From assembly GCF_023660105.1 (NCBI RefSeq), contig NZ_JAMHGA010000021.1, forward strand, positions 1 through 64,000: a DNA stretch of 64,000 bases. Reading direction: 5' to 3'. Of the stretch, positions 57,109 through 63,923 are shown piece after piece; the stretch's first letter is position 1; the number at the start of each line of letters is the position of its first letter. The notes under the pieces are model-generated. The model was not told the DNA's origin. It made no database searches and was given only the letters and a program-made list of their open reading frames with translations. This stretch comes from Desulfovibrio aminophilus (lineage in GTDB: Bacteria; Desulfobacterota; Desulfovibrionia; Desulfovibrionales; Desulfovibrionaceae). The translations under genes and the position numbers were made by a program.

Positions 57109-57184
57109 GGGGACGTAGCTCAGCTGGGAGAGCGATGCGTTCGCAACGCATAGGTCGTCGGTTCAATCCCGATCGTCTCCACCA
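57109..57184 (+). tRNA. tRNA-Ala (CGC), island attachment site
   Basis: 76 bases with encoded CCA. Acceptor GGGGACG pairs with CGTCTCC, including the G3-T70 wobble pair that defines alanine tRNAs; anticodon loop TTCGCAA gives CGC. Everything after its 3' end is mobile or defence-related, so the tRNA 3' half is the probable attachment (att) site. Confidence 0.95.
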
Positions 57185-57245: not shown

Positions 57246-58763
57246 CTAATGAACCGACCTTTCTTCCGAATCTCCCTGATCTAACCCGGGAACCTTTGCA
57301 CGGCGCGCTCCAAGGACCGCAACAAGGGCTCGAATTCGGCGTACACCTCGCTCAAGCGCATCAAGTGCCGCTCCAATTCGAGAACGCGATCGGAGAGAGC
57401 CGCCAAGGCCGTCTCGTTGCGCCCCTTTTCCTCGACTGCCTTCTTCTCCCAACGCATCAACGCCTTGACCACATGACCTTCCAACTCGTTCATGGCTCAC
57501 TCCAATCTCAGCGCATGCCGGTCCCCAACCGTCCATCCCGTCACGGCCGTCGTTCCCTCGGGCAAGACAATGAACCGGCCCTGTCGATCCTCCACCAGTT
57601 TCAGACCCCAGGTATTTTTCTCGATGCGGTTCGCATCGTTCCTGAGTTCCTCGAGATGGGTCTCCCATTGGGCTGTCGCCGACTGAATCCGCTCCAGTCG
57701 AGTATTCAACAGAGCAAGGACGCACAGGCCGGCAATCCCCAGGCCCAACGCCAACCCCATCCCCCAAAAGAAACTCTTCAGCAGACCACCGGCCAGCACC
57801 TTCCGCCAACTCGACATTTCCTGCTCCACCAAATCCAACTGGGACCAGATCATCTGGCTCAACAGCTCCCCGTGCCGACGGATACCGTCTTTGGTTATAT
57901 TGAGCACGTCGCTCGACGATTCGCTCAAGCTCTGCCGCAAGATGTTCAATTCTATGTTCACGGTCTTCTCCATCACCTCGCGGTCCTGGGCTACCCGGGC
58001 CTGAAAGCGGCTGGTCAATTCGCCAAGACGCATTGAAAACGCCTCCTTTCAGGCGGACTCTGACGCCTGTTTTTTGGTCAACGACAGTAAGGTAGTCCTT
58101 TCCCTCCCTGGGAATATCCAACTCCACTTCGCGAAGAGCGTCGACAATGTCACGACGGCTGATGACAAGACCCAACTCAATGCGTTCCCGCAAATAATCC
58201 ACAATGCACGCCTGGGCGTCTTCCCTGGTTTCCAGCCCGAATCTTAAGCGCCGGGCATTCTCCAGACTTGTGTGGGAAGGGGTGCAGATCCTGGCACGCG
58301 CGGGATCATCAGGGCGGGCCCACCCTTCCCGCCAATTCCACAGATCCCGGAAAGGATCGAGGTCACGCTGCCAGCCGGGTGGGAAGGCATTCATGGCTTT
58401 GCCGGAGTGGAGTTCGACACGGGGAATCACGAAATGCAGCTCATGGTGGCCACAATGGGTATGTTGAACCCATAGGATATCGTACCGATCTGGTTCCAAG
58501 CCAGCAAACGCCACCCTCTCGAAATCGTCCATCAGAGCCACTTCCTTTTCCGGGCTCAACACTTCACCGGGGGCCCAGGACAGGACGCCCGACGAATACT
58601 TCCAGGTCCGATTCTGGGCATCAATGAGCGCACGAGTCATGCCCGGGTCGCCTCGGAGAACTTTGGGAGGAGATTGGGAACGTCCCGGGTAGTCCAACCG
58701 CAGGAGGTAATGCACCGGTCCCCTCCCCGAGCCCTTGCCATGGGGGAATAACTTCAAATACAT
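57246..58763 (-). CDS. mobA: ColE1-type relaxase MobA (MOB-HEN group)
   Basis: 505 residues, the same size as ColE1 MbeA (517). The relaxase core lies in the first 290 residues. Tyr19 (VHYLL) coincides with the known MbeA nicking tyrosine; H101-x6-E108-x-H110 (HTHCGHHELH, residues 101-110) aligns with the His-Glu-Asn triad, with the Asn replaced by His. It nicks oriT to start conjugative transfer with help from a self-transmissible element. The C-terminal third (after about 245) overlaps two other genes in other frames, as in ColE1 (mbeB and mbeD inside mbeA), so its protein sequence there is poorly constrained and Gly/Arg-rich. Start overlaps the mobC end by 10 bases. Confidence 0.82.
   Translation of the reverse strand: MYLKLFPHGKGSGRGPVHYLLRLDYPGRSQSPPKVLRGDPGMTRALIDAQNRTWKYSSGVLSWAPGEVLSPEKEVALMDDFERVAFAGLEPDRYDILWVQHTHCGHHELHFVIPRVELHSGKAMNAFPPGWQRDLDPFRDLWNWREGWARPDDPARARICTPSHTSLENARRLRFGLETREDAQACIVDYLRERIELGLVISRRDIVDALREVELDIPREGKDYLTVVDQKTGVRVRLKGGVFNASWRIDQPLSGPGSPGPRGDGEDREHRIEHLAAELERIVERRAQYNQRRYPSARGAVEPDDLVPVGFGGAGNVELAEGAGRWSAEEFLLGDGVGVGPGDCRPVRPCSVEYSTGADSVGDSPMGDPSRGTQERCEPHREKYLGSETGGGSTGPVHCLARGNDGRDGMDGWGPACAEIGVSHERVGRSCGQGVDALGEEGSRGKGAQRDGLGGSLRSRSRIGAALDALERGVRRIRALVAVLGARRAKVPGLDQGDSEERSVH
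57281..57493 (-). CDS. mobD: MobD-like protein, nested in mobA
   Basis: 70 residues, almost entirely one charged coiled-coil helix (KGRNETALAALSDRVLELERHLMRLSEVYAEFEPL). Lies wholly inside mobA in a different frame, directly after mobB, exactly where mbeD lies in ColE1. Its role in ColE1 includes mobilisation and entry exclusion. Confidence 0.68.
   Translation of the reverse strand: MNELEGHVVKALMRWEKKAVEEKGRNETALAALSDRVLELERHLMRLSEVYAEFEPLLRSLERAVQRFPG
57497..58033 (-). CDS. mobB: MobB-like protein, nested in mobA
   Basis: 178 residues. A helical N-terminal half (about 1-85, with LTSRFQARVAQDREVMEKTV), one membrane helix (about 88-112, LLKSFFWGMGLALGLGIAGL) and a cytoplasmic coiled tail. 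Reads in another frame wholly within mobA, the same layout as ColE1 mbeB. MbeB-type proteins join the relaxosome and the membrane. GGAGG (CCTCCTTTC on the plus strand) precedes the start. Confidence 0.72.
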   Translation of the reverse strand: MRLGELTSRFQARVAQDREVMEKTVNIELNILRQSLSESSSDVLNITKDGIRRHGELLSQMIWSQLDLVEQEMSSWRKVLAGGLLKSFFWGMGLALGLGIAGLCVLALLNTRLERIQSATAQWETHLEELRNDANRIEKNTWGLKLVEDRQGRFIVLPEGTTAVTGWTVGDRHALRLE

Positions 58764-59056
58764 GGCCCGCGCCTCTTCAGCTCCCGCAGCACGGCATCGA
58801 GGTAAACGATGACCTTGATGGCCTCGGCCTCACTCTTGTAGGTGTTCACCCACCGCGCGACCTGATTGAGATTCGCCCCGGCGCGAGCAATAAGCCGCAG
58901 ACTCTCCTGCTCCACAGAGGTTTTCCGCATGCGGTATTGCAGCAGCCGATACCGGATGAGATCAGCCAAAGTCATTCCTGCAGCCTCGGCCTTGGCTTCA
59001 AATTCTGCTTTCTCCTCCTCGCTCACGCGCAGCTTAATCCAGAGTTTTCGGCTCAT
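58754..59056 (-). CDS. mobC: MobC-like relaxosome protein
   Basis: 100 residues. A basic ribbon-helix-helix-like N-terminus (MSRKLWIKLRVSEEEKAEFE) and the MobC domain signature ARAGANLNQVARWVN (about 60-74). Helps the relaxase open oriT. The ATG at 59056 fits the family; the frame continues 40 codons upstream without a good start. Its stop lies inside the relaxase start. Confidence 0.85.
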   Translation of the reverse strand: MSRKLWIKLRVSEEEKAEFEAKAEAAGMTLADLIRYRLLQYRMRKTSVEQESLRLIARAGANLNQVARWVNTYKSEAEAIKVIVYLDAVLRELKRRGPCI

Positions 59057-59221
59057 TCTTATGCTCTCTAGATTTAGGCTTGGAGGGGTTCCAAGGGGCA
59101 ACGCCCCTGGCCAGCCCCCGGCAGTGGCCTGTGGCCACAAAGGGTAGGCTGGCCAAACGCGGCAGCCGAAGCGCAATAACAGCCCAAAGAAACAACAGAC
59201 AGGGTCAAAGAAGTCGGCATG
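59057..59221. promoter_or_regulatory. Candidate oriT region
   Basis: 165 bases between the HTH gene and mobC, where ColE1-type plasmids carry oriT. Two inverted repeats: AGGGGC/GCCCCT (59094-59108) and GTGGCC/GGCCAC (59124-59138). The exact nick site cannot be named. Confidence 0.4.
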
Positions 59222-59449
59222 CTATTCATGTCGGCTTTCGGTCAGATGGTACGAATCGGTGGTCAGAACAGTATGGGCGCGGGCAAAAGCGTCCAGGTCA
59301 GAGCGATCATACACGACTCGCCGCCCGAGCTTCTGGTAGGCCGGGCCACGTCCACGGCAGCGCCAAACTTCAAGCGTGCCAGGCTGAAGGCGGAGATACG
59401 CGGCCGCTTCGACGGTGGTGAGTTTTGGGGTGGGATAAATCGATTTCAT
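59222..59449 (-). CDS. Excisionase-like HTH protein
   Basis: 75 residues with a MerR-like winged helix of the excisionase/HTH_17 group (LTTVEAAAYLRLQPGTLEVWRCRGRGPAYQKLGRRVVYDRSDLDAF). Typical of element-encoded directionality factors or small regulators. Located between the mob module and the defence genes. Confidence 0.75.
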   Translation of the reverse strand: MKSIYPTPKLTTVEAAAYLRLQPGTLEVWRCRGRGPAYQKLGRRVVYDRSDLDAFARAHTVLTTDSYHLTESRHE

Positions 59450-59889: not shown

Positions 59890-60357
59890 ATGTCCAGACC
59901 TAGTGCTAACGGGGAAGCAGTGGTGGAGGTGCTGACCACGGTCCACCGTCGACGGTGGACCGTGGCGGAGAAACTGGAGCTGGTCCAGGAGTCGCTGCAT
60001 CCGGGCATAAACGTCTCGTACGTGGCCCGCAAGCACGGCATCTCGCCGAGTCTGCTGTTTCGGTGGAGAAAGCTCATGAGCGATGGAGGAAAAGCCGCAA
60101 TGCAGGCCGATGACCAGATCGTCAGGGCTGCCGAGTTGCGGCCGCTCAAGAAGCGTGTCCGCGAATTGGAGCGCCTGCTTGGCAGGAAGACCATGGAGGT
60201 GGAAATCCTCAAGGAGGCGTTGGAGATCGCGCGCGAAAAAACTGCTCTCGCGCACGCCGTTGCCCTGGGAGGACGGTTTCCGATGAAACGTGTGGCCGAG
60301 GCTCTGAGCGTCTCCCGCTCCAGACTTGCCGAAGCGGGTGAAGGAGCCGCCCCGTGA
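59890..60357 (+). CDS. IS3-family transposase OrfA (IS2 group)
   Basis: 155 residues. Helix-turn-helix (VAEKLELVQESLHPGINVSYVARKHGISPSLLFRWRK, about 25-60) and a leucine-zipper-like helix (LRPLKKRVRELERLLGRKTMEVEILKEALE, about 78-107), as in IS2 OrfA. Intact, but its C-terminus runs past the usual end because of frameshifts in the overlapping orfB. Confidence 0.85.
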   Translation: MSRPSANGEAVVEVLTTVHRRRWTVAEKLELVQESLHPGINVSYVARKHGISPSLLFRWRKLMSDGGKAAMQADDQIVRAAELRPLKKRVRELERLLGRKTMEVEILKEALEIAREKTALAHAVALGGRFPMKRVAEALSVSRSRLAEAGEGAAP

Positions 60358-60828
60358 AAGGCCTGCGCGCTACTCCAAGGCCGAGGACGAGCGGTTGCTG
60401 CCGCTGATCCGGGACATCGTGGATCAGCGCCTTGACCTACGGCTATCGCCGGGTCTGCGCCCTGTTGAACAGGCAGCTCCGGCAGGATGGGCGCGGGCGT
60501 GAATCACAAACGCGTTTCCGGATCATGCGCCTTCATGGCCTGCTGTTGGCCAGGCACAAAGGCTACAGGCCGGAGCGCAGCCATGTTGGGGCTGCGCTCG
60601 CGCTTCACGCCGGTCCGCAGCCCGGAAAGCAACGGCATGGCCGAGGCCTTTGTGAAGACCTTCAAGCGGGACTATGTCCGTATTCATGAACGTCCCGATG
60701 CGGAGACAGTTTTGAACCAGCTCCACGCCTGGTTCGAGGACTACAACGAGAGGCACCCCCACAGGGGGCTGCGGAGCCCCCCCAAGGGATTCATCCGCTC
60801 GTCAGCATCCGCAGGGGGTCCGGTTTAG
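60283..60828 (+). pseudogene. IS3-family OrfB remnant
   Basis: Pieces of an IS2-type DDE transposase: MKRVAEALSVSRSRLAE, then a frame change, KRVKEPPRERPARYSK, another change, TYGYRRVCALLNRQ and RLHGLLLARHKGYR, then an internal deletion that removes most of the DDE core, and FTPVRSPESNGMAEAFVKTF with WFEDYNERHPHRGL. At least two frameshifts and a loss of about 300 bases. Confidence 0.85.
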
Positions 60829-61173: not shown

Positions 61174-61929
61174 TTAGTTGCCCTTCAATTTCAACAGCTC
61201 ATCGTCCAGTCCATAGCGAACCACGTCGATCCGGTCGCTGCGTTGGGAGACAAAATCACCGGTCATCACGGGGAGCTGGAATGGGAAGAATGCCGGGTTG
61301 TTCAGAAGCAGCCCCAATGCGCCTTTGGCCTCCGGGGTGGCCAGGAGTGCGGATTCAAACATCAAGATGGCCAGGTTTGGTTCGGCAATGCTCACCGGAG
61401 CGGCGTTCTCATAGCAGCCTTTGGCCTCGGAATCCTTCAGGGCTCCCCAGGCGACAAAGGAGCGGATGACGAACCGGGCGTAACGGCTCACGGTTTGCCG
61501 GTCGCCGTACTGTTCCTTCAGGCGGTTGATGATCTGCGCCTGGGTCACCTGATCCTGCAAAGCCAACAGACGGCCGGTCTGTCGGGCCACGTTGAACCAG
61601 AACGGATAGACCGCCGAGATCATTCCCCAGTGGACCGCCAGGGCCATGGACGGATTTTCCCTCAGAAACGCCAGCGAGGCATCCCGGAATGGAATCAACG
61701 CGGGGTCAGGAGAGACCCAGATCTTCATCAGATTGTTGACGACAAAGGTCCGGGTCTGATCGCTTCGTTCGCCTTCGGAGCCGTTGCCTTTTCTGTCCGC
61801 AAGGAACTCACGAAGCTCCTGACGGATGGTTTTGGCGTCGAGCCCCGCCAGCAGCAGATTGGCTGTTTTTTGCATCCACTCGAAACGGATCGCTTGTTTG
61901 ATGCCAATGGCTTCATGTCGTTTGCCCAT
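61174..61929 (-). CDS. BrxA-like BREX protein
   Basis: 251 residues, cytoplasmic, helical. Placed directly after pglZ (TGATG overlap with the pglZ stop; AAGGAG upstream), the position brxA holds in type 3 BREX operons. Visible text: HEAIGIKQAIRFEWMQKTANLLLAGL, FVVNNLMKIWVSPDPALIPFRD, WGMISAVYPFWFNVARQTGRLLALQ. Fits the size and character of the NusB-like BrxA (DUF1819) family but the match is contextual. BrxA proteins bind DNA in some BREX systems. Confidence 0.55.
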   Translation of the reverse strand: MGKRHEAIGIKQAIRFEWMQKTANLLLAGLDAKTIRQELREFLADRKGNGSEGERSDQTRTFVVNNLMKIWVSPDPALIPFRDASLAFLRENPSMALAVHWGMISAVYPFWFNVARQTGRLLALQDQVTQAQIINRLKEQYGDRQTVSRYARFVIRSFVAWGALKDSEAKGCYENAAPVSIAEPNLAILMFESALLATPEAKGALGLLLNNPAFFPFQLPVMTGDFVSQRSDRIDVVRYGLDDELLKLKGN

Positions 61930-63923
61930 CACCGTGTTCTCCTTTCAAACTTCACAAGGGGCACGATGACTTCTTCGATGGCTACACCGCCGTGACCTAC
62001 GATGGCATCTCCCGGATTCACGAATGCGTCGCGGCCACCGGCCACCAGGGGGAAATAATCTGCGGGCAACCCGACCGGCTGCCACTCGTGGGCAAACGGG
62101 AAGGCCCCAGCAACCTGAGCGCGGAGTTCCGGCGTGGGATAGACACGAACACGCTCGCCGCGAGTTTCGGCAACCACACCTTCAGATGGGCGGCCTTTAC
62201 CTTCGCATTGGATGTTGCCGTGATCGGCCGACAGCCAAACCCCATAGCCGTAATCCAGCAGTTGGCCGACCATCGCGGAAAGAAATCCTGCATGGCACCA
62301 CTGCTTGACCTGGTTGTGCATTCCGGCCGAACCGAGTTGCATGCCGTGCATGATCTTGTCGACCTTGTCCACGACCAGCCCCACCACCTTGGTCTTCCCC
62401 GGGTGGATTGCGGAGTCGAGGACGCCCGCAGCATCACCGTCGCCAAGGCCACGCTGGTAGGCGACATCGAGCCGGGACAGGCCATGGCCTTCCCAGAACT
62501 GCTTCCAGAGTTTCTCTTCGCTGTTGGTCGAGTTGATGGATGACGGGAAATAGAGCGGCGGCTTGCCCGAGAAGATCGACTGCCGCGATACCGAGGTCAG
62601 CGTCGGAATCCAGGCGAAGGTCGCGGATTCGCGCATGACAAGATTGGCATCTTGCTTTTGTAGAAGCTGGCGAATGGTCACCCACTGGTCCAGGGCCAGG
62701 CCATCGACGACGATCAGCGCGGCACGGCTGCTACCGGAGTCCTCGATATCCCTTGCCAGGCGGCGCGGCACATGGTGCAGCATGGCTGGATTGGTCGGCG
62801 GCAAGTTGATCAGACTGGAGTAGTGGTCCACCAGCCAACCGGCGAAGGTCGAGTTCAGTGCATCGCCGATTTCCCTGAGCCGGGTCTGATACTCGGTGCT
62901 GTTGCCGCAGTGAACCAGCGAAGAGAGTTCGGCCCATTTCAATGCAAAGGCGGTCCAGTCCGAGTAACGCGCTTCCGCAGTGGGCAGTTCCTTTTCGACA
63001 AGGTCAAACAGGCGGGAAATCCGCAGTTCGTCATCGTCCACGGCGGAGGTGGCGATACCGCTTCGGACCCAGGACCTGGCATCCACTTCAATGCCTTTGG
63101 CCTCGACGGGGGTGAGTTTCCCCTCCAGGAACAGGTTGTCGATGTAGACTTTGATGTCCTGATGGTCGAACGGCAGGCGATCAGGGCCGGGATACTTGAG
63201 GCCGTATTCTGGCGAATCTTCCCGTACCTGATTGGCTCTGCCGAGCCTGGAAAGAAATAGCGGCCAGCGTTCCTGCAAAAAGGCGAAGAAGGCCTCATCG
63301 TCCGGAACGATCTCGGAAAGCGGCCAGGCTTTGAACCCATCATGGCCTTTCAGAACCTGGATGAGCCGCTCGGCCAGCACCAGCGGGATTTGGAGCTTGC
63401 CGTAGTGCAGGCGAAGCAAGGCGCGAAGCAGTTCCACCTCGCTGGCAATCAGCTCAGCGGCGATGCCGAACACATGGCGGAGGATGAAATCCTTGGTGGC
63501 GTTATCGCCCATGCGATCCGGCGGCGACTTGCGTTGAGCCTCAAAAAGTGTGTCCAGCAGGCTTCGGTCGAGCTTCTCGATCACCGGATAGCTAAGCGTT
63601 GGGAACAGATCCCCCAAGTTGAATGAAAGCTTGCGGCCTGCTTGGAGCAGGTCGTATGGCAGGGATTCCAGCTCCGCATCCTGCAAGCGGAGGACGACCA
63701 CCAGATCTGTGTGCTCACCACGGTCCCAAATCAAGCGGTACTTGGATTCGTAGGCGTATCTGAATTCAACCGGGTCACTGAACTCGATCAGGTCGAAGCC
63801 GCGCCCGCGAAGCTCCAATGCCAGCTTCTCCTCGGTCAGCAGGCAATCCGGATCGGCGACCAGGGTCAGCTTGCTGACGTTGGGCACAAAGTCGTTCAGG
63901 ATGGCGTCTCGCCAACTACTCAT
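61929..63923 (-). CDS. pglZ: BREX phosphatase PglZ (type 3-like)
   Basis: 664 residues. Alkaline-phosphatase-superfamily PglZ: metal-binding ALIVVDGLALDQW (about 398-410), TSVSRQSIFSGKPP (about 440-453) with the likely nucleophile, VVDKVDKIMHGM (about 520), SADHGNIQCEG (about 567) and GHGGVAIEEVIVPLVKF (about 642-658). The N-terminal half (1-380) is the helical PglZ extension. PglZ is the core of BREX, which blocks phage replication by a restriction-modification-like epigenetic marking. The ATGA overlap with the upstream gene shows an operon. Confidence 0.88.
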   Translation of the reverse strand: MSSWRDAILNDFVPNVSKLTLVADPDCLLTEEKLALELRGRGFDLIEFSDPVEFRYAYESKYRLIWDRGEHTDLVVVLRLQDAELESLPYDLLQAGRKLSFNLGDLFPTLSYPVIEKLDRSLLDTLFEAQRKSPPDRMGDNATKDFILRHVFGIAAELIASEVELLRALLRLHYGKLQIPLVLAERLIQVLKGHDGFKAWPLSEIVPDDEAFFAFLQERWPLFLSRLGRANQVREDSPEYGLKYPGPDRLPFDHQDIKVYIDNLFLEGKLTPVEAKGIEVDARSWVRSGIATSAVDDDELRISRLFDLVEKELPTAEARYSDWTAFALKWAELSSLVHCGNSTEYQTRLREIGDALNSTFAGWLVDHYSSLINLPPTNPAMLHHVPRRLARDIEDSGSSRAALIVVDGLALDQWVTIRQLLQKQDANLVMRESATFAWIPTLTSVSRQSIFSGKPPLYFPSSINSTNSEEKLWKQFWEGHGLSRLDVAYQRGLGDGDAAGVLDSAIHPGKTKVVGLVVDKVDKIMHGMQLGSAGMHNQVKQWCHAGFLSAMVGQLLDYGYGVWLSADHGNIQCEGKGRPSEGVVAETRGERVRVYPTPELRAQVAGAFPFAHEWQPVGLPADYFPLVAGGRDAFVNPGDAIVGHGGVAIEEVIVPLVKFERRTR

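Follow-up and report, generated by a model that had tools for sequence, protein, structure and literature searches.

A tRNA-associated island joining a ColE1-like mobilisation module to BREX type 3 genes in Desulfovibrio aminophilus

The first 64,000 nucleotides of contig NZ_JAMHGA010000021.1 (C21) in the Desulfovibrio aminophilus assembly GCF_023660105.1, referred to here as the window, contain a ColE1-like mobilisation (mob) module between a tRNA-Ala gene and a BREX type 3 operon. The module consists of four genes, mobC, mobA, mobB and mobD, the last two nested within the relaxase gene mobA. We put a probability of about 75% on the reading that an integrative and mobilisable element (IME) with BREX-3 as cargo has inserted at the 3' end of tRNA-Ala(CGC), and that the window contains its left end. 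The evidence comes from the attachment repeats of the island, the homology and conservation of its mob genes, an oriT-like element upstream of mobC, and sibling islands in related genomes.

The tRNA-Ala(CGC) gene (57109-57184, plus strand; called by ARAGORN and Rfam) is the apparent integration target and left edge of the island, and its end lies 61 nt from the mobA stop. Together with the glycosyltransferase gene upstream of it, the tRNA gene is syntenic in both congeners (G001 and G002), neither of which gave a mobA match in a search of 198 relatives. An attL-like repeat of 67 bp, composed of the tRNA 3' end and the first bases downstream, occupies C21:57139-57205 and has an exact copy (attR) in the opposite orientation at C18:221325-221391 on a second contig, so that C21:57139-57205 corresponds to C18:221391-221325. 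Directly after the attR copy, C18 continues with the sequence that lies 3' of the tRNA in congener G001, that is, the native flank. On its island side the same copy adjoins a tyrosine integrase gene (C18:221621-222808; Pfam 1.1e-24). An IME is marked by a site-specific integrase and by direct repeats that flank it at its target, and both are present here across the two contigs. As the att copy, the integrase and the native flank are all found on C18, the island would start at the tRNA, take in mob and BREX-3, reach the end of C21 (79109) and resume at the end of C18 (253188), finishing at attR. Its two pieces would then form one island of about 54 kb, or a larger one if other contigs lie between them. 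The GC content is 57-60% in three 2-kb steps from 58 kb onwards versus 60-73% in the 29 steps before, and a gene for a 75-aa AlpA/excisionase-like helix-turn-helix protein is found at 59222-59449 (minus strand; Pfam HTH_17 5.5e-12; TIGR01764 excise 4.1e-5, below its cut-off). A sequence-only reading of this DNA had suggested a mobilisable island within a chromosome, and the attachment repeat at tRNA-Ala, the integrase and the native flank on C18 bear this out across two contigs, mobilisation itself being something that we infer. At about C18:219950-220150 (L093), 1.35 kb beyond the attachment repeat, there is also a degenerate copy that resembles tRNA-Ala and whose upstream sequence matches as well; it was not called as a tRNA.

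All four mob genes lie on the minus strand. mobC (58754-59056) encodes a ribbon-helix-helix relaxosome protein (Pfam NikA-like 2.9e-14, MobC 5.8e-9); its ATG start is at 59056, and the open frame reaches on to 59176. It overlaps by 10 nt with mobA (57246-58763), which encodes a 505-aa relaxase matched by Pfam Relaxase (4.6e-8) and by the MbeA model NF047848 (2.7e-43), the latter over residues 1-301 with 148.8 bits, far under the model cut-off of 500. Wholly within mobA, in its +1 frame, lie mobB (57497-58033, 178 aa), which has AAAGGAGG upstream of its ATG, and mobD (57281-57493, 70 aa), with a gap of 3 nt between the mobB stop and the mobD ATG. The arrangement proposed from the sequence alone, mobC and mobA with nested mobB and mobD as in ColE1, therefore holds at these coordinates. 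The same reading counted three coding frames over nearly 800 bases, which has to be corrected: mobB and mobD share one frame and the third same-strand frame has 19 stops in their overlap with mobA, which leaves two coding frames for the 753 nt. An antisense ORF at 57296-58036 (246 aa) was considered as a gene and rejected, as this reverse frame contains 1 to 18 stops in every relative tabulated over at least 100 codons; the first of the two frame-stop tables includes all loci, and the second leaves out L056, L052, L053 and L054.

The nested genes are homologous to those of ColE1-type plasmids. When profiles were compared with hhalign, MobB (26 members) aligned with plasmid MbeB (n = 4) at 2.3e-21 over 162 columns, and MobD (27 members) with plasmid MbeD (n = 3) at 3.1e-9. 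By BLASTP, MobB and plasmid MbeB share 54% over 39 C-terminal residues, and the motifs TWG, ED, GRF, VLP and TGWT are common to both C-termini. Single-sequence family scans were rejected as a way to recognise these proteins, for which profile comparison is needed: the window's own MobB and MobD have no Pfam or NCBIfam MbeB/MbeD match in such scans, Pfam MbeB_N matches 2 of the 26 MobB (best 0.0014), and Pfam MbeD_MobD matches 6 of the 27 aligned MobD (best 5.3e-8), the window's own not among them. Gene order and nesting in the +1 frame of mobA are the same as in the ColE1-type mob region (mbeC-mbeA/mbeB/mbeD), where mobB begins in the same frame, at roughly nt 689-707 of mobA. In plasmid pSNC3-Kan, mobA, mobB and mobD are found at matching offsets, MobB and MobD are called internally encoded, and mobilisation by IncP tra is reported (PMC9282650). 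Unlike the ColE1-type plasmids, the window module sits in a chromosome beside a tRNA gene, with an integrase and defence cargo.

The relaxase differs from those of ColE1-type plasmids in motif III, which reads H-E-H in the window (HTHCGHHELHF) and its close relatives and H-E-N in four ColE1-type plasmids (HQ/HRDKGRLELNF). The H-E-N signature serves as the definition of the MOB-HEN group in the available part of PMC12857230, and the window relaxase lacks this mark of ColE1-type (MbeA/MOBP5) membership; in the accessible text of a 2021 study, MOBP5/HEN relaxases were followed as a feature of ColE1 plasmids in gammaproteobacteria (PMC8683028). Because its motif III is H-E-H and not H-E-N, the module is, judged from its sequence, a sister branch of MOB-HEN and by that mark not a member. 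The earlier description as a ColE1-type module is thus supported by the MbeA model, the profile matches to MbeB and MbeD and the oriT-like element described below, except in motif III.

The closest plasmid relaxases (40-45% over the N-terminal 55-60%) are encoded by small mob plasmids of Aeromonas, Klebsiella, Rahnella and Paracoccus. The Aeromonas relaxase has the H-E-H motif of the window, and mobA in that record is shorter (336 aa) and does not span both genes. mobB and mobD are nested in the Klebsiella, Rahnella and Paracoccus plasmids as in the window, but these are free plasmids of a few kb. Nesting is also visible in plasmids of Yoonia and Methylomarinovum and of the cyanobacteria Rippkaea (with mobB and mobD further apart) and Chondrocystis, so the mobA/B/D triad occurs in plasmids of Alpha- and Gammaproteobacteria and Cyanobacteria as well. 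In two cyanobacterial plasmids (L103, L105), MobB-like and MobD-like frames are nested in a mobA of 758-851 aa or more, as limited by the stretch read, and the overlap thereby crosses phyla. PLSDB gene tables are incomplete: those of two plasmids (L099, L057) give mobB and mobD without mobA, and those of two others (L100, L106) give mobA without mobB or mobD. Annotation may therefore miss overlapping mob genes in both directions.

Among 198 relatives searched, 30 have mobA homologues when the own genome is counted (29 of 197 others), and 26 of the mobA-bearing genomes besides our own belong to the same family, one of them (G111) by a 25-residue fragment only. In a phylum sample of 395 genomes, the relaxase was found in 8, of which 7 (own included) are of this family and 1 of another, and a whole-protein scan of genome contigs gave one locus, L002. 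We examined 36 loci (the window, L002 and L023-L056), leaving out the short mobA-match fragments G086:C81, G086:C58, G078:C84, both G100:C1 rows and G111:C20. A mobC homologue lies immediately upstream of mobA in 35 of the 36, and both nested genes are kept in 25 (the window and 24 of the 35 others). Frame tests were run on 24 of these; the 25th, L055, has a mobA match without the 5' part. The sequence-only reading had made its case depend on mobB or mobD homologues occurring in relatives and on mobA not ending before the overlap; both genes are present in many relatives, and mobA spans the overlap. Among the remaining loci, the 3' end is rearranged in L033, mobA lacks a start and mobB is shortened in L045, mobA is cut by contig ends in L047 and L048, the genes are truncated, broken or unclear in L050, L051 and L056, and the nested pair is absent from the distant loci L053 and L054. 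In L038 (14932-16146) and L002 (3783-4997), mobA is about 100 aa shorter, mobD is nested and mobB is gone, and this lineage seems to have lost mobB.

Both frames of the overlap are kept open, as indicated by shuffle tests and by mobA running past mobD. In all 24 loci the sole +1 stop from the mobB start to the mobD stop is mobB's own, with 14 to 42 stops in the +2 frame over the same span; because the loci were picked for having both ORFs, this lone +1 stop is partly by construction. When the synonymous codons of mobA were shuffled, the window alone was not significant (0.40 of shuffles were equally poor in +1 stops), and 8 of the 24 loci gave values of 0.010 or below, including L025 and L040 at 38-39% GC. 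When the synonymous codons of mobB and mobD were shuffled instead, 2.6-11.6 stops were expected in the mobA frame, which is stop-free in 24/24 loci (0.001 for the window; 0.045 for the weakest, L024). The end of mobA lies past mobD at every one of these loci, which was not a selection criterion.

Substitution patterns show where the constraint lies. Codon positions were compared, as the sequence-only reading had proposed, among 23 sequences (L052 was omitted as too distant), using the 41 closest of 253 pairs, which share sequences and are not independent. The N-terminal part of mobA has the usual pattern, with 0.078, 0.054 and 0.262 substitutions per site at codon positions 1, 2 and 3. Within the mobB overlap, counted in mobA codons, the values are 0.239, 0.163 and 0.114; the highest of these rates falls on mobA position 1, where mobB has its position 3, and the fast position thus moves from the third of mobA to the third of mobB. 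Protein identity in this overlap reaches 0.78 when read in the mobB frame, against 0.65 for the mobA frame and 0.66 for the third, non-coding one. Constraint on amino acids sits mostly in mobB and mobD, and the tail of mobA is mainly kept open. In addition, 22 of 25 loci have a motif resembling a ribosome-binding site ahead of mobB. It coincides with the MobA stretch R-L-K-G-G, whose R-L-K-G is invariant or nearly so, and since either constraint could explain the motif, it may be a by-product.

An oriT-like element (59075-59158, minus strand) lies upstream of mobC and consists of a GCCAGCC/GGCTGGC stem with an inner hairpin, a second GC hairpin and then GAACCC. Such an element is present ahead of mobC in 30 of the 36 loci, with GAACCC or a similar sequence at its end, and its core GCCAGCCTACCC occurs in 25 of 36, versus 0.002 expected by composition. 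The consensus structure consists of 9 pairs, of which 4 show changes on both sides, in each case in no more than two sequences; compared with shuffles, folding gave z values of -2.8 for the window and -2.6 to -4.9 for three relatives. Compared by eye, two plasmids (L058 and L062) show the same order of parts, AAGCCAG, hairpin, CTGG, GGGCTGCGCCC and GAAACCC; in L063 the first part is AAGCCAT, and in L057 the stretch read starts inside the element. By its order of parts relative to L058 and L062, the element qualifies as a predicted ColE-type oriT with a putative nick site. The other strand of relative L041 carries CTGGCTTAAC, the sequence of the ColE1 nick region.

Islands of the same kind are found complete on single contigs in related genomes. 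The single-contig genome G049 has three mob modules, downstream of tRNA-Thr, tRNA-Leu and tmRNA, and a copy of each RNA's 3' end lies 15.4, 10.3 and 16.4 kb further along. In G074, a 17.3-kb stretch that follows tmRNA contains one mob module. All four of these siblings, islands of 10-17 kb, have their mob module within the repeat-bounded stretch. All three islands of G049 (G049a, G049b and G049c) contain an integrase, identified by Pfam in G049a and G049c and by similarity in G049b, as well as a Prim-Pol or DUF3987 protein. Their cargo is diverse: G049a matches IetA/IetS and PDC-S73, G049b a type II-A retron reverse transcriptase and SoFic, G049c type I restriction, and the G074 island has a bSEFIR match and a type I methylase. 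Apart from the methylase, these matches come from ten proteins chosen by eye as cargo-looking from the four islands, of which nine matched. Because of this choice a rule-based sample was added: in each of ten further genomes, the test protein was the longest ORF found in the 8 kb downstream of mobA, and the control was the longest ORF in another 8-kb stretch of that genome. At E 1e-30 the PADLOC library gave matches for 5 of the 10 ORFs near mob and for 0 of the 10 controls (one-sided Fisher 0.016), island membership of these ORFs not being established and some of the longest ORFs possibly being antisense shadows. The five matches are type I specificity, Avs3a, a GajB/RTasHel helicase (L136, which could be a generic UvrD-like helicase), a type I endonuclease and a type IIG enzyme.

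In the window's own island, pieces of an IS2-like (IS3 family) transposase lie between mob and BREX (59890-60828, plus strand), namely TnpA (59890-60357) and the C-terminus only of TnpB (60487-60828). These are followed on the minus strand by brxA (61174-61932; PADLOC BrxA 3.9e-123) and pglZ (61929-63923; NF033449 1.2e-277) of BREX type 3. The operon continues beyond the window (C21:63920-76696) with genes for BrxHI, DUF3644, PglXI, an AlbA/Fic-like protein, BrxC and BrxF, so that BrxA, type 3 PglZ, BrxHI, PglXI, BrxC and BrxF, the set that defines BREX type 3, occur together. BREX as a regular partner of this mob type was rejected. A search for PglZ covered 26 of the 30 genomes with a mobA match (G111, G131, G154 and G166 were left out) and found it over the cut-off in two, our own and G093, and once below the cut-off in G003; the G093 match is weak (1.7e-4) and on a different contig from its mobA. 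The proposed search for mob modules beside BREX in other genomes thus returned only our own among the 26. The suggestion that the island spreads defence genes stands for the family, whose islands carry various defence genes; it does not extend to BREX as a recurrent partner, and the spreading would depend on a mobilisation that is deduced from the gene content.

Further genes were observed on the pieces outside the window. The C18 part of the island contains type III CRISPR genes (L095:2992-12032; C18:226991-236031). They encode a 667-aa Cas6-Cas1 fusion, recognised by its matches to both proteins, and a RAMP protein, and there is also a weak match to Cas10. Beside them lies a sigma-54 activator (L095:13034-14602) with a CARF-like N-terminal domain below the Pfam cut-off, perhaps a transcription factor sensing the CRISPR signal nucleotide. 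At the end of C21, a repeated metallophosphatase-like sequence (L022:17059-18989; C21:77059-78989) has an 85% similar copy on contig C12.

If the island is an IME, the tyrosine integrase at the C18 end would excise it by recombination between the 67-bp repeats, perhaps with the help of the AlpA-like protein. MobA, with MobC and the nested MobB and MobD, would then nick the oriT that precedes mobC, after which a type IV secretion system acting as helper would export the strand. In the recipient, the island would recircularise and reinsert at the tRNA, delivering BREX-3 and probably also the CRISPR genes of the C18 end. Each of these steps, from excision, nicking and use of a helper to transfer, as well as the translation of mobB and mobD, is predicted from gene content. 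Of the further marks of an IME, its own relaxase and an oriT-like element are present, and the single VirB4 match in the genome is on a separate contig, C2, beside VirB6, VirB8, VirB11, TrbI and VirD4 genes. This set is a possible helper in the same cell, and a helper of VirB/Trb type is plausible because, according to PMC9282650, IncP tra genes gave efficient mobilisation of two plasmids with a ColE1-type mobC-mobA/BD region.

Several observations weigh against reading the window as the left end of an IME. C21 and C18 are separate contigs, so the continuity of the island is not proven. The mob module of the window is at the tRNA end and faces the tRNA, whereas in several relatives int, alpA or a primase gene lies ahead of mobC and points the same way. 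Among the siblings, an exact repeat of at least 30 nt is found only in G049b, with 16-18 exact nucleotides within imperfect repeats in G049a, G049c and G074; G100 has no second repeat copy before its contig end, and in the G074 island neither an integrase nor a Prim-Pol/DUF3987 protein was identified. The window's oriT-like element folds only moderately better than shuffles, and two plasmid oriTs fold no better than shuffles; no such element is seen in the Aeromonas plasmid L064; and the bases beside the predicted nick in the window are CTGGCCAAAC, not CTGGCTTA. Some of these points suit an immobile relic, a mobilisable element that gathered BREX and insertion sequences after integrating and has lost excision and transfer. 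The transposase pieces between mob and BREX, a size of about 54 kb (if both contig pieces belong) against 10-17 kb for the siblings, the mob orientation unlike theirs and nick-adjacent bases that differ from ColE1-like copies such as L041 would all fit. However, all four mob genes and the integrase gene have open reading frames, the mobA frame lacks stops against expectation, the att repeat is still exact over 67 bp and the oriT-like hairpins are intact, and we regard a relic as unlikely.

We are similarly doubtful that the mob module and the integrase came from different elements inserted in tandem at the same tRNA. They do lie on different contigs and at opposite ends, in an order unlike the int-alpA-mobC-mobA of several relatives, but the 22-mer of the tRNA 3' end (up to 2 mismatches) has three copies in the assembly, attL, attR and a degenerate one outside the island, with none between, and the sibling G049a likewise has its integrase at the attR end, facing inward. 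It is quite improbable that the island is part of a self-transmissible integrative and conjugative element whose transfer genes are the VirB4, VirB6, VirB8, VirB11, TrbI and VirD4-like genes of C2. That contig could sit between C21 and C18; against this, MobC, MobA and oriT are of the mobilisable-plasmid type, and four one-contig siblings with the same kind of mob module measure 10-17 kb, leaving little room for a type IV secretion system by their ORF lists, in which not every ORF was scanned. Finally, that mobB and mobD are spurious ORFs of a GC-rich mobA is scarcely credible and already contradicted. The window-only shuffle (0.40) and the lack of family matches for the window's own MobB and MobD would agree with it, whereas the conserved homology to MbeB and MbeD, the substitution pattern, the persistence at 38-39% GC and the motif before mobB do not.

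The IME reading places the island beside known systems from which it differs in defined ways. Canonical IMEs such as NBU1, NBU2 and Tn4555 have a tyrosine integrase, often a tRNA 3'-end target and their own MobP-type relaxase, and are helper-dependent; in the available text of the 2017 review that describes them, the IMEs then described in Proteobacteria include none of this own-relaxase kind (PMC5704250). The relaxase module of the window differs from the canonical ones in being ColE1-like with nested mobB and mobD. Defence islands of Escherichia coli on IMEs and satellites are likewise carried on integrated mobile islands, many at tRNA loci, but in another host, and the accessible part of that study does not describe a ColE1-like mob module (PMC10121019). 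A full-text literature search turned up no ColE1-type mob module reported from chromosomal islands in this group of bacteria, although this does not prove that there is none. Each component is known, namely nested mob genes, ColE-type oriT, IMEs and defence-bearing islands; what appears to be new is a chromosomal family that combines this mob core with changing defence cargo.

It is an evenly poised proposition that these islands form an undescribed IME family acting as defence shuttles, with one ColE1-like core (oriT, mobC and mobA with mobB/mobD), various tRNA and tmRNA targets and anti-phage sets that differ from island to island (BREX-3; IetAS and PDC-S73; retron and SoFic; type I restriction; type I restriction and bSEFIR), in which the nested triad is unusually old, mobB and mobD are more constrained and the mobA tail is held open. 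If this is true, the nested mobA/B/D triad would be a gene overlap of unusual age that many lineages have retained. The overlap also offers a natural test of how long-lived overlaps behave, since its two frames can be followed through many lineages at different GC contents; the present data say that the inner genes, not the mobA tail, bear most of the amino-acid constraint. The islands suggest how defence islands could travel outside the enteric bacteria, on a conserved transfer core that would make chromosomal defence genes mobilisable.

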